Assembly (NCBI GenBank): GCA_021775595.1
Contig: JAJFHN010000041.1
Coordinates: 62,001-126,000, forward strand
Length of the DNA stretch: 64,000 bases
Origin: Hyphomicrobiales bacterium
Lineage (GTDB): Bacteria > Pseudomonadota > Alphaproteobacteria > Rhizobiales > Methyloligellaceae
Direction of reading: 5' to 3'
The notes under the pieces were generated by a model. That model worked only from the letters and a program-made list of their open reading frames with translations, made no database searches and was not told the origin of the DNA. Both the position numbers and the translations under genes were made by a program. Below are positions 48,132 through 64,000 of this stretch, one piece after another. Within the stretch, counting starts at the first letter, position 1; each line of letters opens with the position of its first letter.

Positions 48132-49187
48132 TCAAGCAACGTTGAGCCGGGCGAATCCGTTCCAGAGCGCAAAGGGTGCGCCGGTCAGATACAGGTCGAT
48201 ATATTTGAGCGCCTGATAGTCGCCATTCAGCGATACGCGCGGCAGAGCCGTAAGGTGATCCTTGTGCTCTGGGAAAATCATGCCCTTGCGCGTTGTCACG
48301 GCGGTTTTGAAACCCAACTCGCTGGCCATCTGAAAATCACGCGGGCCAGCGCTGCGTTCATCGCCATAGGGATAGCTCAAATGCAAGGGCCGGGCGCCGA
48401 GCTCGCGCTCAAGGCGCGCGGCGCCCTTCGCCATCTCTTCTAACGCGTCCTCGTCGCTCAGTTTCGCCACGGCAAAATGACCCTGCGTGTGGGCGCCGAT
48501 CGTCGCCAGCGGATCAGTCGCCAAGCCACGGAGCTCCTTCCAGCTCATAATCAGTGAACGGCAGTGGCTCGCTAGATCATAATCGTAGCGCGCGCAAAGA
48601 TCGCGAATGATTGTGCGCTGACGAACCTCGGACATGGACCGCAAGCGCCAATAGATCCAATCGTATGTCGACCATTTCTCTGCCGTCGTCTTGGTGGCAA
48701 ATTTCTCGTCTCCAGCGCCCAGATCAACATTTATCGCGCCGCGTTTGGCAATGATCGCTTCAAGTGCGAGCCACCACAGCTCGCCCCTGCCACCTGGGAA
48801 GTCGCCGGGTACATAGACGGTGAACGGCACGTTGTGGCGCTTGAAGACGGGATAAGCTTGCGTCAGCGTATCGCGGTATCCATCATCGAGTGTGAACACG
48901 GCAAACCTGCGATCGCATTGGCCCGACACAAGTCGCCGATGCATTTCATCGATGGTGATGATATCGAGACCCGCCGCCCGGACCTTAAGGATTACGGATT
49001 CCAAAAATCCTGGATCCAGGGTCAAAATGCGGTTCGGCGCGAAGGATTTGCGTCGCACACGGCAAACTTGGTGGAGCACAAAAACCAGGCCAGCGCCCCG
49101 TGCATACGGCTCGATCAGCCTGTGCGCCCTGGTGAAGTGAAGCGTGTCGAGACCTGCTCGCAAAATATCGGACCTAATTCCGCTCAT
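48132..49187 (-). CDS. Polysaccharide deacetylase (CE4 family)
   Basis: A 351-residue NodB-fold deacetylase. Its motif 1 is TLDDG (D101-D102), and motif 2 is HTQGH (H233 and H237, metal ligands). SYPYGD (about 271-276) follows. No signal peptide is visible. ATG 49187 has AGGTGG before it; the frame open to 49766 has no support. It probably removes N-acetyl groups from a lipid-linked or nascent polysaccharide, as HfsH does for Caulobacter holdfast. It is divergent from the acyltransferase gene and opens the polysaccharide locus. Confidence 0.88.
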   Translation of the reverse strand: MSGIRSDILRAGLDTLHFTRAHRLIEPYARGAGLVFVLHQVCRVRRKSFAPNRILTLDPGFLESVILKVRAAGLDIITIDEMHRRLVSGQCDRRFAVFTLDDGYRDTLTQAYPVFKRHNVPFTVYVPGDFPGGRGELWWLALEAIIAKRGAINVDLGAGDEKFATKTTAEKWSTYDWIYWRLRSMSEVRQRTIIRDLCARYDYDLASHCRSLIMSWKELRGLATDPLATIGAHTQGHFAVAKLSDEDALEEMAKGAARLERELGARPLHLSYPYGDERSAGPRDFQMASELGFKTAVTTRKGMIFPEHKDHLTALPRVSLNGDYQALKYIDLYLTGAPFALWNGFARLNVA

Positions 49188-49398
49188 TGCACCACCTGAA
49201 TCCAGCCGCTGCGAACAACGGCAATTTAACTTTTGCGACCCATGATCACGGGCCGAGTGACCGTTTATCGAACGGCCCCGTCTACGGTTGTGACAAAGTT
49301 TTCTTGAGAAAGCCTTGATGACGGTATGTCGGAGATAGCCGCTCTTGGTCGCCGAAGGCGCACAGTGCCTGCATCGTGACGTGGAGACGGGAACAAAA

Positions 49399-50655
49399 AT
49401 GGCAATCAACACATTGCCGCAAGACGGTGCGCTGACGATATCCAAGCGCTCGAACGCGCAGGACGCATCGCGTGAAAACTCAGTCGTGGCAACAGCCTTC
49501 GGCCAGGTTGCGCTCTCCCATTTCTCAACGATCGAAGGTGCCCGCGCGTCTTGGCTCGACTTGCAGTCGCGCGCGCCCTGCACCTGTTCGCAAAGCCTGC
49601 GTTGGATCGAAGCATGGCACCGGCATGTCGCCATGCCAAAAGGCGCTGAGCTGGCGATTGTCATCGGCAGCGACGAGACCGGCAAGCCACTCTTCGTTTG
49701 GCCGTTCGAAGTCGTTACGATCTGCGGCATGCGCGTGCTGCGTTGGATGGGCGCAGCCCACTCCAACTACAATTTCGCTCCTATAGATCCGAAGTTCGCT
49801 GGCACCATATCGAGCAACGATATCAGCGCCCTGCTTGAGGCAGCGGCAGCCCAGGTTGGCGATATTAGCGCAGCTATCCTGATCAACCAGCCCATGGAAT
49901 GGGAAGGAATCCGCAATCCGTTCGCGAATCTGCCGCGCCGCGCTGCGCCCGACTCAGGCTATGCGGCGACGCTGAGCGATGACTATGGCGCGCTTGTCGA
50001 AGACAGGCTCGGCAACCGCACACGCAGCTCTCTCCGCCGCAAAGAAAAGCGCATCAAGTCTCTTGGCGAGCTCAAATTTGGCCATTGCGAAGGCGCAGAC
50101 GAAAGCGATCGGGTGCTGCAGGTCTATTTTGATCAGAAAGCCAAACGCTTCGCGGAAATGGGCATCGAAGACACCTTCGCTGATCCTTGCCACCAGAGCT
50201 TCTACCGCGATTTGGCGACAGGCAATAACGAGGACGGCAGGCTCGAGTTGGTCTACCTCAAAGTTGGCGATGATATCGCCGCGACGCTCGGCGCCGTGCG
50301 CCATCAGAACATCTACAATCTGTTTTTGCTGTCTATGACCGATGGCGAGGCTATGCGCTGGTCGCCTGGCCTGCTCTTGATCTGCGAAGAAATTAAGCGC
50401 GCCTGCGGTCAGTCGTCGGTCGAGCTGTATGACTTTGGTGTAGGCAGCGGCCCCCACAAGGCAATGTGGTGCGATCAAATAATTGCGTTGTTTGACAGCT
50501 TCGTCGCTTTTCGCGGGCGCGGGCTTTTGGTGACGCTGCCCTTGATGTTCAAAGCGAGCCTCAAGCGCTACATCAAATCAAACGCCCGTCTTTGGTCGTT
50601 CGCGATGACGATCCGCCGCCTGCTAAAGGGCCGCGCCCCGAGCACTCGGGCCTAG
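49399..50655 (+). CDS. GNAT-type acyltransferase (CelD/BcsL-like)
   Basis: A 418-residue protein of the GNAT-like acetyltransferase group annotated as CelD/BcsL or FemAB-like. The C-terminal half has RKEKRIKSLGELKFGH, then YNLFLLSMTDGEAMRWSPG and VELYDFGVGSGPHKAMW, which fits this group. HfsK of Caulobacter, which acylates holdfast, is such an enzyme. ATG 49399 (MAINTLPQDG) follows GGGAACAAAA. Its stop overlaps the converging stop of the copolymerase gene by three bases. Acylation of the polysaccharide is inferred. Confidence 0.82.
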   Translation: MAINTLPQDGALTISKRSNAQDASRENSVVATAFGQVALSHFSTIEGARASWLDLQSRAPCTCSQSLRWIEAWHRHVAMPKGAELAIVIGSDETGKPLFVWPFEVVTICGMRVLRWMGAAHSNYNFAPIDPKFAGTISSNDISALLEAAAAQVGDISAAILINQPMEWEGIRNPFANLPRRAAPDSGYAATLSDDYGALVEDRLGNRTRSSLRRKEKRIKSLGELKFGHCEGADESDRVLQVYFDQKAKRFAEMGIEDTFADPCHQSFYRDLATGNNEDGRLELVYLKVGDDIAATLGAVRHQNIYNLFLLSMTDGEAMRWSPGLLLICEEIKRACGQSSVELYDFGVGSGPHKAMWCDQIIALFDSFVAFRGRGLLVTLPLMFKASLKRYIKSNARLWSFAMTIRRLLKGRAPSTRA

Positions 50656-52805
50656 CTAGCCACCACCGACGGCGCGATGCCCGCGCGGGCGAATACGCTG
50701 CGTGCGCTCTGGCCTGTTGGAAGGGAAAGTATTTCGCCGTGGTATTGCCCGGCGGAGAGCCATTGTCTCATCGCATGCTCGCCCGGTTGGGCAACCGCAT
50801 TCGGATCGGCGACGACGACGGTGGCCGCGACGCCATCGCGGTATTCGATCACATGGGCCTGGGCCGCTGCGCCATTGGCGTAGACGAGAACGAAATCGTA
50901 TATCTCGCTAAGGGCGCCAAAAATGCGCAATCCGTTGCCGTTGGCCGCCGGCAGTCCCGGCTGGGAACCGCGCGTGATTACTTGCACTGCACTTTTTGCA
51001 TCCCGCTGGACTGCGCCCTCAAACGTCGCGCTGCCATTCATTAGATCGCTCAGGCCCGCCGAATTGCCTATGGCTAGGGCATCGGCAAGACCGATTTTTC
51101 CATCCGACGCGTCGACCAGGACAACGCTCTTGCCCAAATTGGCGAGCGAACGGGCAAGCGCAAGGGCCTCAGACGTTGCGTCATAGCGCGCATATTCAGG
51201 GGCGATCATTACTCTGCAACCCTTAACGCCCTGGCTTGTTGCCAACAAATGGTTGGCGATGGTTTCGCTGGACGTCGTTTGCCGCGGCGCCGCTTGAATC
51301 GCGCGGCGCTCGTGCATCGGGTTTACAACGTCGCTATGGCGACGCTGGGGATAAGGCGCACCCTGTTGGAGTGCCTGAGGCACCGGCGCGGCAGGCGCGG
51401 CGGGGCTCGACAGCAGTTCGATCGTCACCACCAATGCAAGCAAGACGATGGCCGCTCCCGTGGCCGCCAGCGCTGCGACGGCAGGCGGTTTCGGCGTGGA
51501 GGGCATATCCGACAGACGCGCCGTGGAGATGATGCTGGCGTGGGCCGGCACCGAGAGTGCGTCGTGGCGTGTGTTCGAGTCGCGCAGCCGGGCCAAATAC
51601 GATTCGAGCAGATCCCGATTGGCTTTTGCTTCGCGTTCTAACGAACGTAATTTGATTTCGTTTTCGCTGGCATGCGAGCTCCGTTCCTTGATTTCGTCGA
51701 GCGACGTTCGTAACGAAGCCTCCCTGGCGCCGGCGATCTGAGCTTCGTTCTGCAAGCCCTTCATCACCTTGCGCGCCTCGCCCAAGATTTGCTGCCGGAC
51801 GCTGGAGAGTTCCGATTTGAGTTCCTTGACGCGCGGATGAGACGACATCAGCGTGGCTGAAAGCTCGGATACCTGCCGCTGAACACGGACGCGCTGCTCG
51901 GCCAATCGCTGGATTAGCGTCGAGCGCAATACATCGGACGCGCCGTCGACATCACCCTTCTCCTTGAGCATCTTCGTGATCAAGGACGCCCGGGCCTCAG
52001 CTTCGGTGCGTTGGGCCTTGGCGAGGATCAATTGGCTGTTGAGCTCGGAGAGTTGCTGCGAATTGAGGGTGATGTTGTTGGAACCGGAAAACAATCCCGT
52101 TTTGCTGCGAAAGCGCTCCACGGCGGCTTCCGATGTCTCGACCTTCTTGCGCAATTTGCCGACCTGCTCGCCCAACCATTTGCTGGCGTTGCGGTTCTCG
52201 GTCAGCTTTTCGCCTTGCTGCCATTTCAGGTAATTCTCCGCCATGCGATTGGCGACCTGGGCGGCGATGCGCGGATCGGCTGAGCTAAACTGCACGTTGA
52301 TGACGCGCGAATTGGAAATCGGAAACACATCGAGACGCTTGACGAAGGCGTCGAGGACGCGCTCCTCGAGCACTTCCTTGGATGGACCCTTGGCCAATCC
52401 AAATATTCCCAGCAGCGCCCGAACCGGGCTCTGACTGTTTGAAATTTTCGTGAACTCGGGTTGGGCGTCGAGTTTCAGGTCGCGAATTACTTTGAGTGCC
52501 AAATCGTGCGACAGCAAAACTTGAACCTGGCTGGCAACGGCTTCCTCATCCACCAGAGCATTGTTCGAGCTTCGATTCGTTTCTCCGGACGCCGGCCGCC
52601 TAAAGTCGTTATTGCCGTTGTCGATCAAGATGTGCGCTTCGGAAGTGAACATCGGCGTCATTTGCGCCATCGCCATGTAAGCGGCCAGCCCGACGCACAA
52701 AACCACAGCCGTCATCCAGCCACGGCCGCGCCAAAGCGCCTGCAAGATTGCGCCTACATCCACATCCGGCTGGGATGGCAATGTCGAGGTCTGATAACTG
52801 CTCAT
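50652..52805 (-). CDS. Wzc-like polysaccharide copolymerase with degenerate kinase domain
   Basis: A 717-residue inner-membrane protein of the Wzz/GumC family controlling chain length and export. A first helix near residue 30 (WMTAVVLCVGLAAYMAMAQM) begins the periplasmic Wzz domain, which has long coiled-coil helices (about 180-420), and a second helix lies near 475-500 (AALAATGAAIVLLALVVTIE). The cytoplasmic C-terminus (about 525-717) resembles a BY-kinase: Walker A'-like VVLVDASDG is kept, but the Walker A GKST loop is lost (MIAPEYARYDATSEALALA), and no Tyr cluster ends it. Probably enzymatically dead. ATG 52805 is chosen by family start (MSSYQTSTLP). Divergent from the OPX gene. Confidence 0.88.
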   Translation of the reverse strand: MSSYQTSTLPSQPDVDVGAILQALWRGRGWMTAVVLCVGLAAYMAMAQMTPMFTSEAHILIDNGNNDFRRPASGETNRSSNNALVDEEAVASQVQVLLSHDLALKVIRDLKLDAQPEFTKISNSQSPVRALLGIFGLAKGPSKEVLEERVLDAFVKRLDVFPISNSRVINVQFSSADPRIAAQVANRMAENYLKWQQGEKLTENRNASKWLGEQVGKLRKKVETSEAAVERFRSKTGLFSGSNNITLNSQQLSELNSQLILAKAQRTEAEARASLITKMLKEKGDVDGASDVLRSTLIQRLAEQRVRVQRQVSELSATLMSSHPRVKELKSELSSVRQQILGEARKVMKGLQNEAQIAGAREASLRTSLDEIKERSSHASENEIKLRSLEREAKANRDLLESYLARLRDSNTRHDALSVPAHASIISTARLSDMPSTPKPPAVAALAATGAAIVLLALVVTIELLSSPAAPAAPVPQALQQGAPYPQRRHSDVVNPMHERRAIQAAPRQTTSSETIANHLLATSQGVKGCRVMIAPEYARYDATSEALALARSLANLGKSVVLVDASDGKIGLADALAIGNSAGLSDLMNGSATFEGAVQRDAKSAVQVITRGSQPGLPAANGNGLRIFGALSEIYDFVLVYANGAAAQAHVIEYRDGVAATVVVADPNAVAQPGEHAMRQWLSAGQYHGEILSLPTGQSARSVFARAGIAPSVVAS

Positions 52806-52921
52806 ACTCAACCAATCCTCATTAGTTATTCGATCGATTTGAACGGAATCGCGTAACCAAAGCCTTAAAAGCCGTGTCGAAATATTACGCTTGCTCAACT
52901 TTTCTTAACCATCAGCGATGC

Positions 52922-52937
52922 AATCTGACGTCAGATT
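52922..52937. promoter_or_regulatory. Perfect 16-bp palindrome in the copolymerase-OPX gap
   Basis: AATCTGACGTCAGATT is fully self-complementary. A further half-site ATCTGACG lies at 52954-52961, just before the OPX ATG. Candidate operator for a dimeric regulator controlling the polysaccharide genes. Regulator unknown. Confidence 0.65.
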
Positions 52938-52964
52938 CGGATCCAACCGGGACATCTGACGGCC

Positions 52965-53576
52965 ATGCACTTGCGCATAATCCTGATACTCATCGCCGCG
53001 ACGGCGCTTTCGGGATGCAATCTCCGCACCAAGTTCAATGACGTCATGCGTCAAACGTCGAGCGCTATGCGTTTGACGCCCAGCGCGCCACGCCAAGCCC
53101 CGATGGCGCAGGCTGCCGGGCCCTACACGCTCGACAGCGGCGATGTGCTGCGCGTTAATGTGTTCGGCCAAGAAAATCTGTCCCGCCAATACTCGGTCGA
53201 TGGCAGCGGATACATCTCAATGCCGCTGATCGGTGCCGTCCGCGCCAGCGGTTCGACGAGCTTCCAGCTCGAGAAGAAGATCGCCGCCCAGCTGAAGAAA
53301 AATTACGTCAAAGACCCGAAGGTGACCGTCGAAGTCGCTACGTACCGGCCATTTTTCATCCTGGGAGAGGTTCGCCAACCCGGCCAATTCCCCTACGTCA
53401 ATGGCATGACGGTGCAAAACGCCGTGGCGATCGCGCGCGGCTATACCGAGCGAGCGCGTGAACGCAAAGTACAGCTGACACGCAGAATTCAAGGCCGCGA
53501 CGTCAAGATGACGGTGCCGCGCGACTACCCGATCAGACCCGGCGATACCATCTATGTGATGGAGCGGTTTTTATAA
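52965..53576 (+). CDS. OPX/Wza-type polysaccharide export lipoprotein
   Basis: A 203-residue outer-membrane polysaccharide export protein. The lipobox LSGC puts the lipidated cysteine at C18. The poly-export domain starts YTLDSGDVLRVNVFGQENLS, then SYxxDGxGYISMPLIG-like (SVDGSGYISMPLIGAV). A SLBB domain follows (FFILGEVRQPGQFPYVNGMT). It is short compared with Wza (about 380) and lacks a clear C-terminal helix, like HfsD-type or GumB-type proteins. It starts the plus-strand part of the locus, with the palindrome upstream. Confidence 0.92.
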   Translation: MHLRIILILIAATALSGCNLRTKFNDVMRQTSSAMRLTPSAPRQAPMAQAAGPYTLDSGDVLRVNVFGQENLSRQYSVDGSGYISMPLIGAVRASGSTSFQLEKKIAAQLKKNYVKDPKVTVEVATYRPFFILGEVRQPGQFPYVNGMTVQNAVAIARGYTERARERKVQLTRRIQGRDVKMTVPRDYPIRPGDTIYVMERFL

Positions 53577-53603
53577 TCATCAAAAGACGCTATTGCTTCG
53601 CGC

Positions 53604-54737
53604 GTGGCTGATACCCTTACCATTCTGCATTGCCTGAGGGCCCCTGTCGGCGGCCTGTTTCGGCACGTTTGCGATCTCACCGCCGAGCAAGCGCGGATGG
53701 GCCACAGGGTTGGCATCCTCTGCGATTCGAATTCCGGCGGATCGGCAGCCGATTCGGCACTTGCGAAAATCAAGACGAAATGCGCGCTTGGCGTGCATCG
53801 TGTGGCGATGTCGCGCGGTGTTGGCCCGCGGGACTATTTGGCCTATCGCGCTGTGCGCACGACCGCGCAACAGCTTGGAAACGTTGACATTTTACATGGT
53901 CACGGCGCAAAGGGCGGCGCTTATGCGAGGCTTGCCGCGCGCACGTTCAAGCGCAAAGGATTGGCTGGCCGGGCGATCTACACCCCCCATGGCGGCGCGC
54001 TGCATTACTCGCCGACAAGCCTGAAGGGGCGCATCTATCTTGGGCTCGAGCGCTGGCTGGGCCCCTTGAGCGACGGGATCGTGTTCGAAAGCGCTTACAG
54101 CCAAACGCTCTATGAAGATAAAGTCGGTCCGATCCCGTGTCTTCACCGGGTCGTGCCGAATGGCCTGCGCGGTGAAGACTTTTACGACATCATCCTGACC
54201 GACGACGCGACTGACTTTCTGTTCGTTGGAGAATTGCGCGAACTCAAGGGCGTGGACGTCCTGTTGCAGGCTCTATCGCGCGTTCGCCAGAAAAGGCCTG
54301 CCACGGCCACTATTGTCGGCTCGGGCCCGGATGAGCGCGCATTCAAGGATCTGGCGAAAAACCTAGGGCTCGACACGAGCGTGAGCTTTTCAGGCTATGC
54401 CCCGGCGGCCTTTGCATTCGTCCGCGGGCGATGCCTCGTTGTGCCCTCGCGCGCGGAATCTTTTCCCTACATCGTGCTCGAGGCGGCGGCTCGCAAAATT
54501 CCGATCATCGCCACGGATGTGGGCGGTGTGCCCGAGATGTGCCAAGACAGCGGTATGGTGTTGTTGCCGCCTGGAGATGTGGCGGCCCTCACCGAACGGA
54601 TGAACGTATTCCTCGATGATACCCTGCAATTCATGGAAACGGCTCAGACATTCCGTGAAATCGTGTCAAATCGGTACACAACACAAAAAATGGCGCAAGC
54701 CATCATCGAGCTCTATCGCGAAGTGCTGATCACCTGA
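53604..54737 (+). CDS. Glycosyltransferase family 4 (GT-B)
   Basis: A 377-residue GT4 glycosyltransferase. The N-terminal domain begins LTILHCLRAPVGGLFRHVCD; the C-terminal nucleotide-sugar domain has FLFVGELRELKGVDVLLQAL, the E-x7-E motif ESFPYIVLE, and TDVGGVPEM. No membrane segment is seen. It probably adds a sugar to the lipid-linked repeat unit. The GTG start (53604) is not backed by a clear ribosome-binding site. It follows the OPX gene by 27 bases, so it belongs to the same operon. Confidence 0.9.
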   Translation: MADTLTILHCLRAPVGGLFRHVCDLTAEQARMGHRVGILCDSNSGGSAADSALAKIKTKCALGVHRVAMSRGVGPRDYLAYRAVRTTAQQLGNVDILHGHGAKGGAYARLAARTFKRKGLAGRAIYTPHGGALHYSPTSLKGRIYLGLERWLGPLSDGIVFESAYSQTLYEDKVGPIPCLHRVVPNGLRGEDFYDIILTDDATDFLFVGELRELKGVDVLLQALSRVRQKRPATATIVGSGPDERAFKDLAKNLGLDTSVSFSGYAPAAFAFVRGRCLVVPSRAESFPYIVLEAAARKIPIIATDVGGVPEMCQDSGMVLLPPGDVAALTERMNVFLDDTLQFMETAQTFREIVSNRYTTQKMAQAIIELYREVLIT

Positions 54738-54770
54738 GCGTCCGCCCGTGCTCCACACAGGCAGCCGAAT

Positions 54771-54799
54771 CCGACAGCTAAGCCCACATTAACTATAAA
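54771..54799 (+). promoter_or_regulatory. Candidate promoter of the hexose-1-phosphate transferase operon
   Basis: CCGACA (54771-54776) and TATAAA (54794-54799) are 17 bases apart, giving a leader of about 140 bases before the ATG at 54946. The leader holds GGTTCA-ATC-TGAACC at 54909-54923. Confidence 0.45.
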
Positions 54800-54945
54800 A
54801 CACCTCGCCTGCGGGCCTTAAATCTTCGCTGACATGGCCATGACATAACGGAACCTCTGGGGGAGACCGGCGGTTCGCGCGCAATTGGCACGGCCAATGC
54901 AGTGCGCAGGTTCAATCTGAACCGTCGAGAGTTGGTGTACGAGGC

Positions 54946-56487
54946 ATGTCCAAGGGGCTCGAAAAGGGCGGCTTATTTCGCAAGACAGCCGCTGCAGCCG
55001 AATTGCTCGATACGCGCTTGGCAAAGCGCGGCCGCCTGCTGCCGCGCATTCCAGAACTCGACCTCAAAAACGAACCCAATCTGATTTCGCCAATCGTCTT
55101 CACCGGGATCGTCCGAGCGGTCGAATTCCTTCTGGTCAGCGTGCTCGGCATCGCAATCTTCTGGCTGTATGTGGGTCCTGGAGTTTACGGCTTCACGATG
55201 ATGTACGTAGCCGCCTCACTGCTGGCGGGCGGCCTCACGACCCTCATTTTTCAAGGCCTCAGCCTTTACAATCTGCAAGCCTTCGCCGGTTTGGCGCGCC
55301 AATTGCCGCGCCTGGGCATGGGCTGGACAATCGTGTTCACGTCATTGGTCGTGTTGGCCTTTTTCCTCAAACTCGGCGGCGAGTATTCCCGGGTGTGGCT
55401 GGCGACTTGGTTCTTGACCGGCGCGGCGGCACTGGCGGGCGGGCGCATCGTCGTGGCGGCGCTGGTTAAATATTGGGGTCACACGGGACGGCTGGAGCGG
55501 CGCGCCGTCATCGTCGGCGCCGGCGCTGATGGCGAGAAGCTGATCAAAGCGCTCGAAGCCACGCCCTACACCGACATCCGCATTTGCGGCGTCTTCGATG
55601 ATCGCTCCGACGAACGCGTTTCACCCGTCTGCGCGGGCTATCCCAAGCTTGGAAACGTCGATGAATTGGTGGAATTCGGACGCAAGACCCGCCTCGATAT
55701 GCTGATCATGACGCTTCCGTTGACGGCGGAAAACAGGCTTTTGCAAGTGCTCAAAAAGCTTTGGGTGCTGCCCGTCGATATCCGTCTTTCAGCCCATACC
55801 AACAAGCTGCGATTTCGGCCGCGCGCCTATTCCTATATCGGCAACGTTCCCTTTATCGACGTTCAAGACAAAGCCATCGCCGACTGGGATCATGTCGTCA
55901 AATGGTTGTTCGACAAGATCGTTGGCGCTCTGCTGATCGTGCTCACCGCGCCGATAATGGCGCTGGTTGCGCTCGCGGTCCGTCTGGACAGTCCGGGACC
56001 AATTTTGTTCAAGCAACGCCGCCACGGCTTCAACAACGAGCTGATCGAAATTTACAAATTCCGCTCGATGTACACCGACGACACCGATCACAAGGCATCC
56101 AAGCTCGTCACCAAGGATGATCCCCGCGTGACGCGTGTCGGGCGCTTCATCCGCAAGACCAGCCTCGACGAGCTGCCGCAGTTTTTCAACGTCATCATGG
56201 GCACGCTGTCGCTCGTCGGACCGCGGCCGCACGCCACCCAAGCCAAAGCCGCCAACGCGCTCTATTCGGACGTTGTCGATGGTTATTTCGCGCGCCACCG
56301 CGTCAAACCCGGTGTGACGGGCTGGGCCCAGATCAATGGTTGGCGGGGTGAAACCGATACCGAAGAAAAAATCCAGCACCGCGTCGAACACGATCTCTAC
56401 TATATCGAGAACTGGTCGGTTCTGTTCGATCTCTACATTCTTCTCAAGACACCCTTCGCGCTCATCAACACGCGGAACGCCTATTGA
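54946..56487 (+). CDS. Polyprenyl-phosphate hexose-1-phosphate transferase
   Basis: A 513-residue enzyme of the WcaJ/HfsE type that starts repeat-unit synthesis by transferring a hexose-1-phosphate to undecaprenyl phosphate. N-terminal transmembrane helices (about 50-170) are followed by a CoA-binding-like domain ([20 protein letters not shown]) and the bacterial sugar-transferase domain (about 315-513: [20 protein letters not shown], then [35 protein letters not shown]). Very typical C-terminus. The donor sugar is not decidable. Stop overlaps the next ATG (TGATG). Confidence 0.94.
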
Positions 56488-57746
56488 TGGCGTTCGTATC
56501 GACGATGCATGGCGGTGCTCGGGCGGGTGTGCTCGACTCGCGCATACTCCGCCTGTTTCTCGCCCTCACCGTATTCGCCGGCGGCTTCGTCTTTGTTGAA
56601 CCCGCACCGTACGAAATCGTCTTTCTGGCATTCTTTCTGCTCACGCTAATCGCGGGCCTCAAGTTCACGCCGCTTATCGCCATCCAGATCCTCTGCCTCG
56701 TCGGATTCAACATCGGCGGATTGATCGCGGCGACGCTTCTCGGTTTCGATACGAAAATTGCGACATATGTCGCCGTTTCATTCTATTTGGCGCTCACCGC
56801 AATCGTCTTCGCCGCCATCGTTGGCGAAGATCCAGAGCGCGCCACGACGATCATCGGACGCGCTTGGATCGCGGCAGCGGCGCTCGCCGCCCTATTGGGC
56901 ATCATCGGCTATTTTCATTTGTTGCCAGGCGCAGACTTCTTCACGCTCTATGGCCGCGCCCGCGGGACGTTCGAAGATCCAAATGTCTATGGCCCATTTC
57001 TGATCCTTCCGGCGTTGCTGCTCGTACAAACCGTATTGAGCCCGGTGGGCGGGCGAACACTCGTCGCCTTGCCGCTGCTGGCGGTGATCGTGACCGGATT
57101 GCTGCTCAGCTTTTCCAGGGCGGCATGGGTGCATCTGTTTTTGTCGGGCCTCTGTCTCACCTACCTGATGTTCATCACATCGACCTCGAACCGATTCCGT
57201 TTCCGCATCGCCGCTGTGACGGCGCTGGGATTCCTGGCGTCTCTCGCCTTGCTCGCGGGCCTTTTGAGCATCCCGAGCGTGTGGGAGTTTTTCCAAATGC
57301 GGGCGACGTTGGTTCAAGACTATGATGGCGGCGCCACCGGACGCTTCGGAACGCAGCTTATGGCCCTGCCCGACCTGTTCTCGACGCCGCTGGGTTTGGG
57401 ACCCCATGAGTTCGGCGTGCGCTTTGGGCAAGACCCCCACAACGTCTTTATCAACGCCTTCGCCGCATATGGCTGGCTTGGCGGCATCGCATACTTCACC
57501 TATGTGATTCTGACGCTGATGCTCGGGCTGCGCTTCGTCTTCGGCACTGTTCCATGGCAGCGTTTTTTCATAGCGACACTCTCAGCCTTTGTGGGGCTGG
57601 TGCTGATCGGCTTGGTTGTCGATACGGACCATTGGCGTCATTTCTATCTGCTGTCGGGCTTGATTTGGGGCATGTCGGCCGCGAACCTGGCGCATGCCCG
57701 TTTTCAGCAGGCACAACCGCTTGCGGCGCGCCACGTCGCGGCTTGA
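56487..57746 (+). CDS. O-antigen ligase/polymerase-like membrane protein
   Basis: A 419-residue protein with about ten transmembrane helices. It contains the Wzy_C/O-antigen-ligase hallmark of a periplasmic loop ending GLGPHEFGVRFGQDPHNVFI, with the conserved HN (PHNVFINAFAAYGWLGG). In this context it is the likely polymerase joining repeat units, comparable to HfsC. ATG 56487 overlaps the upstream stop. No flippase gene (Wzx) is in view. Confidence 0.88.
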   Translation: MAFVSTMHGGARAGVLDSRILRLFLALTVFAGGFVFVEPAPYEIVFLAFFLLTLIAGLKFTPLIAIQILCLVGFNIGGLIAATLLGFDTKIATYVAVSFYLALTAIVFAAIVGEDPERATTIIGRAWIAAAALAALLGIIGYFHLLPGADFFTLYGRARGTFEDPNVYGPFLILPALLLVQTVLSPVGGRTLVALPLLAVIVTGLLLSFSRAAWVHLFLSGLCLTYLMFITSTSNRFRFRIAAVTALGFLASLALLAGLLSIPSVWEFFQMRATLVQDYDGGATGRFGTQLMALPDLFSTPLGLGPHEFGVRFGQDPHNVFINAFAAYGWLGGIAYFTYVILTLMLGLRFVFGTVPWQRFFIATLSAFVGLVLIGLVVDTDHWRHFYLLSGLIWGMSAANLAHARFQQAQPLAARHVAA

Positions 57747-58552: not shown

Positions 58553-60619
58553 TTAGCGCCAGGAGCGGTTGCGGTAGCGTGGCGCCCTGCGACGTGGCTG
58601 GGGCCATTCGCGGCGCGACCATCTGCGGCCCGGCGGATCGCCAAATACCGTGATACGGCGCGAGGCGCGCGGGGTCATGTATCTAAAGAAATCGAATGCG
58701 GTCGTGGGATAAGACATGAATTCGTTGTGAGCAATTTTCATGCTCATGCGATCGCGCCGCATGCGCGACTGGAAGGCCGCGACGCGGGGCAATTTTGATT
58801 TGAACTGAGGATCCTGGCGGCGGGCATCGCTCATGAATTTGCGCCAGATTTGCGCCGGCATATTACCGCCCGTCACACGCCGCATCGACGAGTTGTTGTC
58901 GTTGCCAACCCACACACCAACGACAAGGTTTCCGGCGAAGCCGATGAACCATGCGTCCCTGAAATCCTGGCTGGTGCCGGTCTTGCCATAAGCCCGAATG
59001 GGCAGCCGGGCGGCGCGGGCCGTGCCGTAATCAACCGTTCCGGCAAGCAATTCGCGCATTTGCGGACCCACCAGCAAGCGCCACTGACCCGACCCGCGCG
59101 GCGGTTTGCCGGCGCCCTCACCCTCGCCCAGAGCCGCAACACCCCATGGCAGTATCGGATATGCGTTTGCGGCGTTGGCGGCGTAGGCCGATGTCAATTG
59201 CAGTAAATTTACTTCAGAGGCGCCAAGCGCAATGCTGGGCGTCGACGTCAGAGGCGTCGTTATCCCGAGATCGCGGGCCGCCGTGATGACGTCCTGGCGG
59301 CCAACTGCCTCTGAGACGCGTACAGCCACGGTGTTGATCGAGGAGGTAAATGCCTGCCGGAGCGTGACAGAGCCACGATAGTTTCGGCCGTAATTTTGCG
59401 GACTCCAATCGCCGATCGTGATCGGTTCGTCGGAGGCATACATGTCGGGGCTGGCGCCGGCCCTAAGCGCCGCCAAATAAACAAACATCTTGAAGGATGA
59501 CCCAGGCTGACGAAGCGCCTGAACCGCCCGATTGAACTGGCTATCGCGGTAATTCCGCCCGCCCACCATGGCGACGACCCGTCCATCGGTCCGCATGGCG
59601 ACCAAGGCCACCTGGCTTGCCCTCCTGCCCTTGGCGGAGCGCTTCATGACGTGCTCCACGGCGCCGTCGGCCAATTGCTGCAATTTCGGATTGAAACTGG
59701 TGCGGACTTTAAGCGGCTTGGAAATATCGCCATGGGTCTTATCGACCGTTTGCGCGACCCAATCGGCGTAATAGGCGCCAAATCTGCCGGAACTGTCGAC
59801 GATTTTGGCCCGCTCGATCGATTTCAATGCCTCGGCATCAAGACTGCCCGTCTCGACCATGGCTTCCAGCACCAATTGATGGCGTTTCCAGGCCGCTTCG
59901 TGCTGCCGGGCAAGCCGCGTCGGTGCGCGCAAATAGGCAACCAAAAGCGCGGCTTCGGAAATCGTCAGCGCGTCCACTTGTTTCTTGAAATAATGCCGCG
60001 CTGCGGCGCGCAATCCGTGACAGCCTTCGCCGAAATACGCGACGCTCAAATAGCGCTCCAGTATCTGATCCTTGCTCAGCAGCATCTCAAGACGCAGAAC
60101 CAAGAGCGCCTCTTTCAGTTTTCGGGAAAAGGTCTTCTCACTCGTCAAATAGGAGACCTTGGCGAGCTGTTGGGTGATGGTGCTACCGCCCTCGACGATC
60201 CTCTCGGCCTGATAGTTGTTGAGCGCGGCGCGCAGAATGCCTTGGGGATCAATTCCGAAATGGTAGTAGAAGCGGCGGTCTTCCATCGCCAGAACGGCAT
60301 CGATGACGTGTTGCGGCAGCTCCTTGATGCGAACCGGCGCATCGACGCAACTGCCTCTGCGGGCAAAGATTTTACCGTCATCGCCGTGCAGAACGAGCTG
60401 TCGCTCGACTCTGGGCGCCAATGTCGCATCGAGGGGAAAAGTGGTTCCAGGGGGTGGATATGTGCCGACACACAGAACAACGAGAATGCCAAAGACCACA
60501 ACGATCTGGTTCAAGGCGGCAGAGGCGTACGGGATGCGCAATTTGCCATCGGCAATCCGGGCACTCAATTGGCGCAGATCGGAGCCGATGCGCTTTTTAA
60601 GCTCGTCGAGCTCTAACAT
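58553..60619 (-). CDS. Class A penicillin-binding protein (PBP1A-type)
   Basis: A 688-residue bifunctional peptidoglycan synthase. A transmembrane helix (about residues 38-58) is followed by the GT51 glycosyltransferase (EDRRFYYHFGID, then EGGSTITQQLAK). The transpeptidase domain shows QPGSSFKMFVYL (catalytic Ser of SSFK), SSIN (SxN) and KTGTSQDF (KTG). It ends in a strongly basic Arg/Trp/Pro tail. ATG 60619 (MLELDELKK), preceded by GGGAG, is preferred to a start at 60655. It lies downstream of the giant Cys-rich protein gene on the same strand, both of the cell envelope. Confidence 0.94.
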   Translation of the reverse strand: MLELDELKKRIGSDLRQLSARIADGKLRIPYASAALNQIVVVFGILVVLCVGTYPPPGTTFPLDATLAPRVERQLVLHGDDGKIFARRGSCVDAPVRIKELPQHVIDAVLAMEDRRFYYHFGIDPQGILRAALNNYQAERIVEGGSTITQQLAKVSYLTSEKTFSRKLKEALLVLRLEMLLSKDQILERYLSVAYFGEGCHGLRAAARHYFKKQVDALTISEAALLVAYLRAPTRLARQHEAAWKRHQLVLEAMVETGSLDAEALKSIERAKIVDSSGRFGAYYADWVAQTVDKTHGDISKPLKVRTSFNPKLQQLADGAVEHVMKRSAKGRRASQVALVAMRTDGRVVAMVGGRNYRDSQFNRAVQALRQPGSSFKMFVYLAALRAGASPDMYASDEPITIGDWSPQNYGRNYRGSVTLRQAFTSSINTVAVRVSEAVGRQDVITAARDLGITTPLTSTPSIALGASEVNLLQLTSAYAANAANAYPILPWGVAALGEGEGAGKPPRGSGQWRLLVGPQMRELLAGTVDYGTARAARLPIRAYGKTGTSQDFRDAWFIGFAGNLVVGVWVGNDNNSSMRRVTGGNMPAQIWRKFMSDARRQDPQFKSKLPRVAAFQSRMRRDRMSMKIAHNEFMSYPTTAFDFFRYMTPRASRRITVFGDPPGRRWSRREWPQPRRRAPRYRNRSWR

Positions 60620-60754
60620 GGGACTCCCAACCGCCCCCGCTGGACGGCACATCAACTCTTACGATCAGTCTAGCAGGCAGGCCAGTCAACCGGTGTAAAA
60701 TCGGCAACCGCCTGCCTCGACTGAAGCTACATATGATATCATGGCATCCAGACC

Positions 60755-63700
60755 TCAACGGGGCTTTACCAGATTTGGATTAATCGTCATCGACGGGCCG
60801 CCGTTTGGCTGAATTTGCACAAACACGCAGTTTCCACGGATTTCAACGCGTCCTGCCGGGCATACGCAGCTCCTGCGCTTGGCGTCGTAGACCTTGCCGC
60901 CAGAGCAGCGGATCGGTTGGGTCGTAGATGTACCGGGTGATGTGGTTTGGCCACCGGGTGCCGTCTGCAGACGCAGGCATCTACCGCGAACTTCCGTTTG
61001 GCCCGAGGGACATACGCAGCGGTTGCGCTTGGCGTCGAACACCTTGCCGCCAGTGCACGAACTGACACACTGCCTGCCCGTCCAGCGCTGACCCGCTGAA
61101 CAGCGGTTGACGCACTGCTTGCCATCCCAGCGTTGACTTGACTGACACCGGTTGACGCAGCGATTTCTACGGCTGCTCCAAAGCTGGCCGGCAGCACAAC
61201 GATTGACGCATTGTTTGCCGTTCCAGCGTTCGGCCTCCGGGCAACGCGTGACGCATTGCTTGCCGTCAAACACCGTGCCCGATGCGCAGCGAACGCGGCA
61301 GCGGTTCAATTTGCGGTCGAACACTTGCCCCGATGGGCAGACGCATTTACCGCGCACCAAGCTCTGCCCGCCGCCGCAAATCGGGACGCATCGGCCATTC
61401 ACGCGTTGCTGGCCACGCGGACACGGCCGCGGCGTGACGACAGGTCCTGGATCAGTGGGAACCGGATCGCTCGTTTGCGGCGCGCGGATAAATGCAGCCG
61501 TGACACATGAACTGTCGTCGGCGGCGTTTTGATCGCCAACGCCCCACGACCGGATCAGCGCATTCATCACCGCAGGATTGATGGTGCCGGTGATGCGCAT
61601 GTTTTGCTGGCGCTGAAAGCGTCGGATTGCGCGCTGGGTCTGGCTCGTGATCGTGGCGTTCGGCGCACCAGGCTTGAAGCCATGCGCCCGCAGAGCCTGT
61701 TTTGCTGCCGCCGTACGGCCATTAAACGTGGGGCCGCGCCAGACGAAATTCGCGCAGTTGCGGATGTCTGCGCCCGCACGGGCCGGCATGCGGAAAGTGA
61801 GCCGCACCTTCTTCGTTTCGCCAATTCCAAGCGAGAGGTTGGGATGGCGGCAAGTAAAGCGGCCATTGCTGCCCTTGCAATTCCATGGCGAGGGTGTGGT
61901 GCGCAGCAAACGCGCATTTTGCGGCGTCATCTGCTCGGAGATCACCAGCGGACCCTGATACGGGACGACGCCATTGTTGGCGACCGTGATCGCAAACGAA
62001 CACTCCTTGCCCCCCTCACAGCGCCGCGAGCCGGCGACCTTGCTAACCGAAAGCTGGGGACCGAAACGGCCTGCGATCGGATCGCGCGGCCCATCGGGCG
62101 CTTCGTCCTGGGGCTGTTCGACCTGCTCCTGAACCGGCGCCTCTGGCGGGATCGGCTGTGGCGCGGGCAGGACGGGCTGATCCGCTATATCATCGGTCGG
62201 CTCCGCTATAGCAACATGCACGCAAGATGACTTGGCTTGATTGCCCTGCGGGACTGTGAAGCAATTCCTCAACCAGACTTTGTCTTGTTCCCCCCTGTTT
62301 TCCGCGATTCTGGGATCGTATTTCGGGTTATCGATGCGAAGCGTGATTGCGTAGGTTTGGGATGCGCCCGCATCTAGATTAAGTTCGGCGATACAACGCG
62401 ATCCGTCTCCCGCCGCAGCGCCTGCTGCGAAGGTGACATTGAGTTCCGGGTCGCAAAGTTGCGGCTCGATTGACGTGATCGGCAGCGCATAAGGGCTGAA
62501 TGTTCCGTTTGGACCACTGGCTCTGGCGGCATAGTCCCAAAGATCAACTCCTTGGATTCTTTGAGCAGACCGATTGCGGAACGTCACATTGAACGTGCAT
62601 TCGCTCATATATGTGCAGCTTGCGGGGCCTTTTTTGGCGAATTCGACATCGCCGGAAGCGATCCAGTCGTCGTCTTCGGGTTCTGGAACTTCTGGAGCAG
62701 CTTCCTCAGGCGCCTCGCCGCCTGGCGCTGCGACGACGCCCTCGGGCACGACAAAACTATGACAGTCGCGATCGAATTCACGTCCAAAAATCCAGCCAAG
62801 CCAGCTTAGATCTTCGACGGCAAAACAAGCGCGCGCGCGGACGACACCATCGGGCGCACGGTTTGCGGCGTCTGCCGGATCAAGCAACGGGCTTTGAATG
62901 GTCAAGCGCAGCGGATAGGAGCGCGCCTGATTTGGCGCGAGCTGCAAGCGGAAGCGGCAATCGATATCCATTTGCGCGATGGGTCCGGCGCAAAAGCCCG
63001 GCGTTTGAGCAATCTGCTCGGGAACGTCGACGCCCAGACGTTTGAGATCGACGACGCCATCGACCGTCTGATCAAACGGAACGGCCAAAGTGTTGCGGAT
63101 TGTCAGCCCCAGGGAGCACTCCTGGCCAAAGGGGCACTCGGCCTGCCCACCGATGCTGACATCAAGTGCGGCAATCTCGGGCAATGGATCTGGCCCAGGA
63201 CCGGGAAGCGGTCCGGCGATAAACGCGATATCGGCGCAATCACGGTCGTTGAGCGGGTTGGCATCGCCAAGACGGTGGGCGCCTGGGCCAAACAGCAGCT
63301 CCAAAACTTCCGGCGTCACTTCACCTGTCGCAGGCAGCCCCGCGGCCACTTGAAAATCGCCAATGGCTGTGCGCGTTGCTGGCGTCAGAGCGCCATCAAC
63401 CGGTCCGGCATAAAATCCCAGATCTGACAGCTCCATCTGCACCGCGCGGACCGTCGGCTCGCTGTTGCGGTTGCCGGCCCAGGTGATGGCCGCGCAATTG
63501 CGCCAGCCCGGTATCAATATCTTGGCCTTGAGCTGAAAATCGACCCACAGATTGACCTGGCGGCCCGGCCACAAAAGAACTTCAGGGCGTTTGCACGAGA
63601 CTTCCTTACCCACCTGACCGCAGGTCCAGGGCAAAGCGCCATAGCCAACCAGGGCCATGCCGGCTTGCGATATCTCATCGCGGATGAGCAACGGGCCACG

Positions 63701-64000
63701 ATAGGCGGCCGAGTTCACATTGCGCACGCTGATGCGGAAACGGCAGATGCCACCGATTGTGCACGCACCGATCTGTTGCTTGTCGATCGCCAGATCGAGC
63801 ACGTTTTGCGCTGGCGGCAGGGGCGGCAGCGCCGGCGGCGGAACGTAGGGATCTTGCGGCTGGCAGAGAACGGGGATCGCGATATCTCCAATCCAACCCC
63901 GCGTTCGCTCAGCACTGTAGGCGCCGCTGAAATCGACAAAACGCGCCAATTTGGGCGGCGCGTTTTCTGGACGTACCAGCGTCACCGCGTTGCCTTGCAG
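60755..64000 (-). CDS. Giant modular Cys-rich envelope protein, 5' end outside window
   Basis: At least 1,081 codons remain open to the window edge; a GTG at 63985 is only the first internal start, and five more in-frame codons precede it, so the true N-terminus is missing. Modules visible (numbering from that GTG): a DUF11-like beta-sandwich with Cys pairs (about 63-172), a peptidoglycan-binding domain (about 176-233: LGFYAGPVDGALTPATRTAI), two more sandwich-like units, then a fourth sandwich plus second peptidoglycan-binding domain nearly repeating the first pair (PWNCKGSNGRFTCRHPNLSL; FNGRTAAAKQALRAHGF), and a tail of twelve Cys units. Acidic Pro-rich linkers join modules. Envelope attachment is inferred; the enzymatic role is unknown. 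Confidence 0.9.
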   Translation of the reverse strand: MQGNAVTLVRPENAPPKLARFVDFSGAYSAERTRGWIGDIAIPVLCQPQDPYVPPPALPPLPPAQNVLDLAIDKQQIGACTIGGICRFRISVRNVNSAAYRGPLLIRDEISQAGMALVGYGALPWTCGQVGKEVSCKRPEVLLWPGRQVNLWVDFQLKAKILIPGWRNCAAITWAGNRNSEPTVRAVQMELSDLGFYAGPVDGALTPATRTAIGDFQVAAGLPATGEVTPEVLELLFGPGAHRLGDANPLNDRDCADIAFIAGPLPGPGPDPLPEIAALDVSIGGQAECPFGQECSLGLTIRNTLAVPFDQTVDGVVDLKRLGVDVPEQIAQTPGFCAGPIAQMDIDCRFRLQLAPNQARSYPLRLTIQSPLLDPADAANRAPDGVVRARACFAVEDLSWLGWIFGREFDRDCHSFVVPEGVVAAPGGEAPEEAAPEVPEPEDDDWIASGDVEFAKKGPASCTYMSECTFNVTFRNRSAQRIQGVDLWDYAARASGPNGTFSPYALPITSIEPQLCDPELNVTFAAGAAAGDGSRCIAELNLDAGASQTYAITLRIDNPKYDPRIAENRGEQDKVWLRNCFTVPQGNQAKSSCVHVAIAEPTDDIADQPVLPAPQPIPPEAPVQEQVEQPQDEAPDGPRDPIAGRFGPQLSVSKVAGSRRCEGGKECSFAITVANNGVVPYQGPLVISEQMTPQNARLLRTTPSPWNCKGSNGRFTCRHPNLSLGIGETKKVRLTFRMPARAGADIRNCANFVWRGPTFNGRTAAAKQALRAHGFKPGAPNATITSQTQRAIRRFQRQQNMRITGTINPAVMNALIRSWGVGDQNAADDSSCVTAAFIRAPQTSDPVPTDPGPVVTPRPCPRGQQRVNGRCVPICGGGQSLVRGKCVCPSGQVFDRKLNRCRVRCASGTVFDGKQCVTRCPEAERWNGKQCVNRCAAGQLWSSRRNRCVNRCQSSQRWDGKQCVNRCSAGQRWTGRQCVSSCTGGKVFDAKRNRCVCPSGQTEVRGRCLRLQTAPGGQTTSPGTSTTQPIRCSGGKVYDAKRRSCVCPAGRVEIRGNCVFVQIQPNGGPSMTINPNLVKPR
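60827..61423 (-). repeat. Twelve tandem Cys-rich protein units
   Basis: The C-terminus of the giant protein carries twelve units of about 13-17 residues, each of the form C-x3-G/Q-x(4-8)-C (for example CSAGQRWTGRQC and CASGTVFDGKQC). The DNA is only partly alike between units, so they are old protein repeats rather than a fresh DNA satellite. A Thr/Gly/Pro linker separates the last two units from the rest. Confidence 0.85.

Follow-up and report, generated by a model that had tools for sequence, protein, structure and literature searches.

The large open reading frame at the edge of the analysed DNA (a stretch of 64,000 nt from a soil and water bacterium, hereafter the window) encodes, in our reading, the one-chain form of a two-part envelope tether found mainly in Hyphomicrobiales, in which a propeller head would sit on a wall-held rod; we put the probability of this reading at about 0.55. 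The ORF occupies positions 60755-64000 of the reverse strand and is open to the window edge. The initial annotation had placed its 5' part outside the window, and the full gene, which was obtained from the source genome (G000:C39:122758-127425, reverse strand), indeed extends beyond it. The gene encodes 1556 aa, of which residues 479-1556, i.e., the 3' two thirds of the gene, are covered by 60755..64000. It starts at a well-placed ATG with GGAGGA upstream, such that the protein begins with MAKPRLTF and shows a signal-peptide-like segment at its N-terminus that ends in ..PLFAQ. We are highly confident of the overall anatomy. Like fibrillar adhesins, the protein is exported and long (1556 aa) and repeats its stalk domain, here as four sandwiches.

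Among the sandwiches, unit 2 (residues 1122-1316, 61478..62062, on the reverse strand like all protein features below) is assigned to the CLIPPER fold by Pfam as well as by a structure model. Pfam DUF11 (PF01345) matches in its region with 27.0 bits (cut-off 24.6). For the model of residues 1100-1556 (me5430a64485a; pLDDT 77 overall, about 90 or more across most of the sandwich), structure 9IFR is the first-ranked Foldseek match of unit 2 (E = 2.3e-8) and again the best match in a second alignment (Z 14.2, 2.6 Å, 121/123 residues). 9IFR was solved in a 2025 survey that renamed DUF11 to CLIPPER; its isopeptide bond connects Lys715 and Asn806 with participation of Asp748 (PMC12617251). Unit 1 (residues 542-740, 63206..63802) belongs to DUF11/CLIPPER as well, given its homology to unit 2 and to units of relatives, and a model of a relative's unit 1 also matches 9IFR. 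Between the two units lie the sandwiches S2 (residues ~752-896, 62738..63172) and S3 (residues ~925-1076, 62198..62653). Comparisons against shuffled sequences (z = 12.9 for S2-S3, z = 7.5 for S2-unit 2) bear out that these are two further sandwich units, as had been proposed.

The Lys-Asp-Asn isopeptide triad is a stiffening feature that was absent from the initial annotation and that we add here. In unit 1 (K549, D583, N643), the triad spacing is 34/94, compared with 33/91 in 9IFR. Unit 2 uses E instead of D (K1129/E1164/N1223), S3 has K931/D964/N1054 with longer spacing, and in S2 these residues have been lost. Over 264 distinct family sandwiches, the isopeptide positions hold K in 87%, D in 76% (E in 18%) and N in 89%; K and N are both kept in 214, both lost in 7 and mixed in 8 sandwiches. 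The Cys columns are likewise gained and lost pairwise, i.e., the first pair shows both residues in 220 sandwiches, neither in 17 and no mixed case, while the second column pair gives 255/1/1/1. A third disulfide likely connects the Cys of the NCA strand with the Cys of the last strand. Taken together, triad conservation and paired Cys columns point to a rod that is probably doubly cross-linked by isopeptide bonds and disulfides. The disulfide-stiffened rod suggested earlier is thus supported, and so are the twelve Cys units reported at the protein's end: the Cys-rich tail (residues 1335-1533, 60827..61423) contains 24 Cys in about 12 paired units that form short hairpins. Matches of CBM_14 and EGF_TEN in such Cys tails stayed below the cut-offs and were discarded.

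Both PG_binding_1 domains (PF01471) exceed the Pfam cut-off of 23, with 59.2 bits for the copy in unit 1 (residues 656-711, 63293..63460) and 43.9 bits for the copy in unit 2 (61556..61711), in which several consensus residues are lost. That is, DUF11 and PG_binding_1, for which the initial annotation had proposed a domain search, are both found above their cut-offs. It had also placed a PG-binding domain after each of the two sandwiches; two such domains are present, but their position is inside the sandwich. In the SAND-PG units examined, the order is NCA strand, PG-binding domain and closing strand with its Cys (C730 in the last strand of unit 1); in sandwich units without PG-binding domain, a spacing of about 21 residues separates the same two Cys. 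In the unit 2 model, three helices (138-193) follow strand 121-128 and precede strand 206-214, and the alignment with 9IFR covers 21-214, i.e., it spans the insert. Since the alignment runs across the helices and the closing strand follows them, the PG-binding domain sits in the CLIPPER loop before the last strand and is not appended. The likeness to PG_binding_1 thus concerns the scores above the curated cut-off and the three-helix domain of the model, while the location in a sandwich loop differs from the attachment at an enzyme's end. Within the family sample, only the window protein has two PG-binding domains. A wall tether at two points, as proposed before, is in line with its domain content but does not hold as a family trait. 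Most family members have no PG-binding domain and, since only about one in five has one, wall binding cannot be the core job of the family.

Unit 1 and unit 2 share 30% identity over 185 residues (E = 2e-23), and their alignment score of 200 compares with a maximum of 51 for shuffled sequences (z = 33), such that the alignment first made by eye is above chance. Unit 1 is 43% identical to a unit of another species' protein (L043) and unit 2 is 36% identical to another (L058), compared with the 30% between the sister units. In the unit tree, the two lie apart: unit 1 clusters with first units (95/89) from other species, unit 2 with the L058 unit and last units. Because each unit thus falls with its counterparts from other species, the duplication is old; a recent internal duplication is ruled out by the tree together with the higher identity to the units of other species. 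The claim that the protein was built by module duplication thus holds in the deep sense of homologous units but not for a recent event.

The head (residues ~40-521) reaches into the window with its C-terminal end only (63860..64000), as placed by family alignment and a relative's structure model. In this region, neither Pfam (with propeller families checked to E values up to 1) nor NCBIfam gave a match. A von Willebrand A domain, which the initial annotation had considered for the missing 5' part, was dropped given the lack of a Pfam match, and a propeller is predicted there instead. We base this on the head of a relative (L066, ~49% identical), which was modelled as a six-bladed propeller with pLDDT >90 over most of its length and which matches nidogen with Z 25.3 (2.6 Å over 257 residues) and the LRP and LDLR propellers with Z of about 24. 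From this model, the head of the window protein is predicted to be a six-bladed propeller as well.

We compared head and rod genes over 80 related loci. In 38 of them, head and rod form one fused protein, and in 37 the head gene is followed by a separate rod gene, while 5 loci (3 at contig ends) were counted in neither class; with L128 reassigned to split on inspection and the window added, the counts are 38 fused and 38 split. Separate rod genes are located at -223 to +11 bp from the head in 36/37 cases and at +381 in the remaining one. A Cys module of ~110 aa is found at the end of separate heads and within separate rods, and the two versions are homologous (hhalign E 8e-16). It is present on 36/42 lone heads and 37/42 lone rods but on 0 fused proteins; most of the lone heads and rods without it are truncated, masked or other ORFs. 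Along the head tree, the fused/split state changes at least 9 times, and the module tracks the state in 6/7 independent pairs and never in the opposite direction (sign test, p = 0.03). For instance, the heads of L084 (split) and L075 (fused) are 84% identical, and modules are found only in the split pair; in the fused L075, the head runs directly into the CLIPPERs. Our reading of these sequence patterns is that the module pair would dock the head to the rod and that fusion would make the module dispensable. The switch between fused and split genes with a matched module represents a natural experiment, which points to a head-rod complex and offers a candidate docking pair.

Many separate rods that follow a propeller gene start with DUF7929 (PF25551), which the CLIPPER survey (PMC12617251) predicted to be an isopeptide domain as well. 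It is found, e.g., in the separate rods of L054, L060, L062, L074 and L109 and is absent from the window protein (Pfam). In the separate rod of a Pseudolabrys MAG (L084:3074-6940), residues ~50-210 look by eye like a carbohydrate-binding sandwich in place of DUF7929. In two Nitratireductor loci, the gene for another large DUF11-type protein, poor in Cys, is convergent with the rod gene (L109:13606-17466, L115:13596-17465).

The computations show domain content, insertion topology, the co-conservation of residues and Cys, gene pairing and module swap; bonds, wall binding, head ligand and place in the envelope are predicted as follows. The protein would be exported via Sec, with disulfides forming in the periplasm and isopeptide bonds closing upon folding. 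The six-bladed propeller would sit on a rod made of CLIPPER domains. In each intact CLIPPER, a Lys-Asn isopeptide bond that forms by itself and as many as three disulfides are predicted to lock the fold. Two of the CLIPPERs would grip the wall through the PG-binding domain inserted ahead of their final strand; given the insertion in a loop, the rod could do so sideways and yet stay continuous. Such PG-binding domains may anchor the protein, while the Cys-rich tail would prolong the chain. A glycan, a protein or a surface is the presumed ligand of the head, which the rod would keep on the wall under load. For split relatives, the Cys module on both partners would stand in for the covalent link. 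Against the tether reading stand the scarcity of PG-binding domains in the family, the eroded PG-binding domain of unit 2 and the missing isopeptide residues of S2. Furthermore, no known domain for outer-membrane export or anchoring was found in the 1556-aa protein (Pfam, NCBIfam), such that the tether is only a candidate for a surface role. At somewhat less than even odds, we also consider a wider picture, namely a conserved Hyphomicrobiales machine of propeller head and locked rod that are joined either by homologous docking modules or by repeated fusion, and that some lineages would clamp sideways to the wall.

The lack of such an export or anchoring domain, together with the Sec signal, the many disulfides and PG-binding domains that face the periplasm, would also suit a periplasmic spacer or mechanosensor. 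Here, the rod would lie in the gap that separates the wall from the outer membrane, and the head would dock an outer-membrane or periplasmic partner, with nothing at the surface. At several loci from several genera (L056:3501-6483, L096, L109, L111, L115, L131, L134), a divergent set of ECF sigma factor, putative anti-sigma factor (labelled by position, without Pfam match) and secreted S8 subtilase is found beside the propeller gene. This suggests envelope-responsive control in those relatives, as in envelope-stress circuits, and the set is possibly a regulatory module for the family; however, it is not adjacent to the window gene. Since, in addition, most members have no PG-binding domain and the rods with 6-7 sandwiches in some of them seem longer than needed, we consider a spacer less likely than the tether.

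Less probable still is that the head is an enzyme of the SMP-30/lactonase/DFPase type and that the rod only keeps it fixed to the wall. The L066 propeller is indeed close in fold to a beta-propeller lactonase (RPA3624; Z 21.8, 17% identity) and to DFPase (also Z 21.8), and the head alignment shows many invariant polar residues (NSGPGLGN, DHGxxGR), but nidogen and LRP, whose YWTD propellers are not enzymes, give the nearest folds (Z 24-25). With the YWTD propellers (nidogen, LDLR/LRP) and RPA3624, the head shares the six-bladed fold (Z 21.8-25.3); in contrast to them, it is bacterial, 10-17% identical, carries long loop insertions and has no Pfam or NCBIfam model.

We least expect a released protein whose rod and head build a biofilm matrix and whose PG-binding domains are vestigial, since no secretion system is linked to the gene and both domains still score above the curated cut-off, even though such domains are rare in the family, one is eroded here and an exopolysaccharide gene set is found ~3-12 kb away in the window. 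This exopolysaccharide-type set (48132-57746, identified by eye from ORF translations) comprises polysaccharide deacetylase-like, Wzc-like, Wza-like, glycosyltransferase and ligase-like genes.

The direct neighbours of the window gene are a transglycosylase/transpeptidase (class A PBP; 58553..60655, ~100 bp downstream on the same, reverse strand) and a flavocytochrome-like gene with a small cytochrome-like ORF (by eye). An operon with the PBP gene was discarded, as class A PBPs are not among the recurrent neighbours of the relatives; promoter and terminator scans gave nothing usable.

Among the closest known systems are the DUF11/CLIPPER stalks of fibrillar adhesins (9IFR; PMC12617251), which share the fold, the positions and spacing of Lys, Asp and Asn, the tandem stalk and added disulfides. 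In contrast to them, the family described here shows six near-invariant Cys per domain, a propeller head, no known sorting signal and, in some sandwiches, the PG-binding domain inserted before the last strand. One stretch of the grappling-hook protein GhpA of Aureispira (9FLP) matches the family sandwich profile (E 8e-4), while organism, size and overall design differ; in residues 983-1102, K and N are aligned, such that an isopeptide bond may be present in this GhpA domain as well. Literature searches on DUF11 in rhizobia, DUF7929, YWTD and ECF-subtilase contexts returned no description of the family. The initial annotation's view that the combination is undescribed thus stands within the searchable literature for the combination and the propeller family, but its parts are known (DUF11 = CLIPPER, PMC12617251). 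A wall-binding domain inside an isopeptide domain would be an unusual clamp for a load-bearing rod. For an alphaproteobacterial envelope protein that is widespread but undescribed, our results propose a partner, an anchor and a stiffening chemistry that can be tested.

The head profile is found in 88/297 sampled genomes of the order (about a third), i.e., in 51/122 genera, and in 5/289 genomes of the class sample, source genome included; in the phylum sample, every match belongs to the same order. Among the named relatives are Mesorhizobium, Aminobacter, Nitratireductor, Devosia, Methylocystis, Xanthobacter and Hyphomicrobium as well as a few genomes labelled Rhodobacteraceae. A plasmid search gave no informative annotated relative. 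The source genome itself encodes a paralogue without propeller (L011:1033-3027; G000:C81:17926-18756 region), which combines a sandwich, a PG-binding domain and a Cys tail and ends in a Peptidase_S74-like domain (22.3 bits, cut-off 22).

Finally, the window protein ends with SMTINPNLVKPR (60758..60793), a weak motif that recurs in the family. An INPxL-like form of it is found at 17/70 rod C-termini compared with a mean of 1.3 for shuffled sequences, for a pattern that was picked after viewing the ends. The recurring motif is possibly a sorting or docking signal. Other C-termini of the family are GIRIPGLQIR-like strands.
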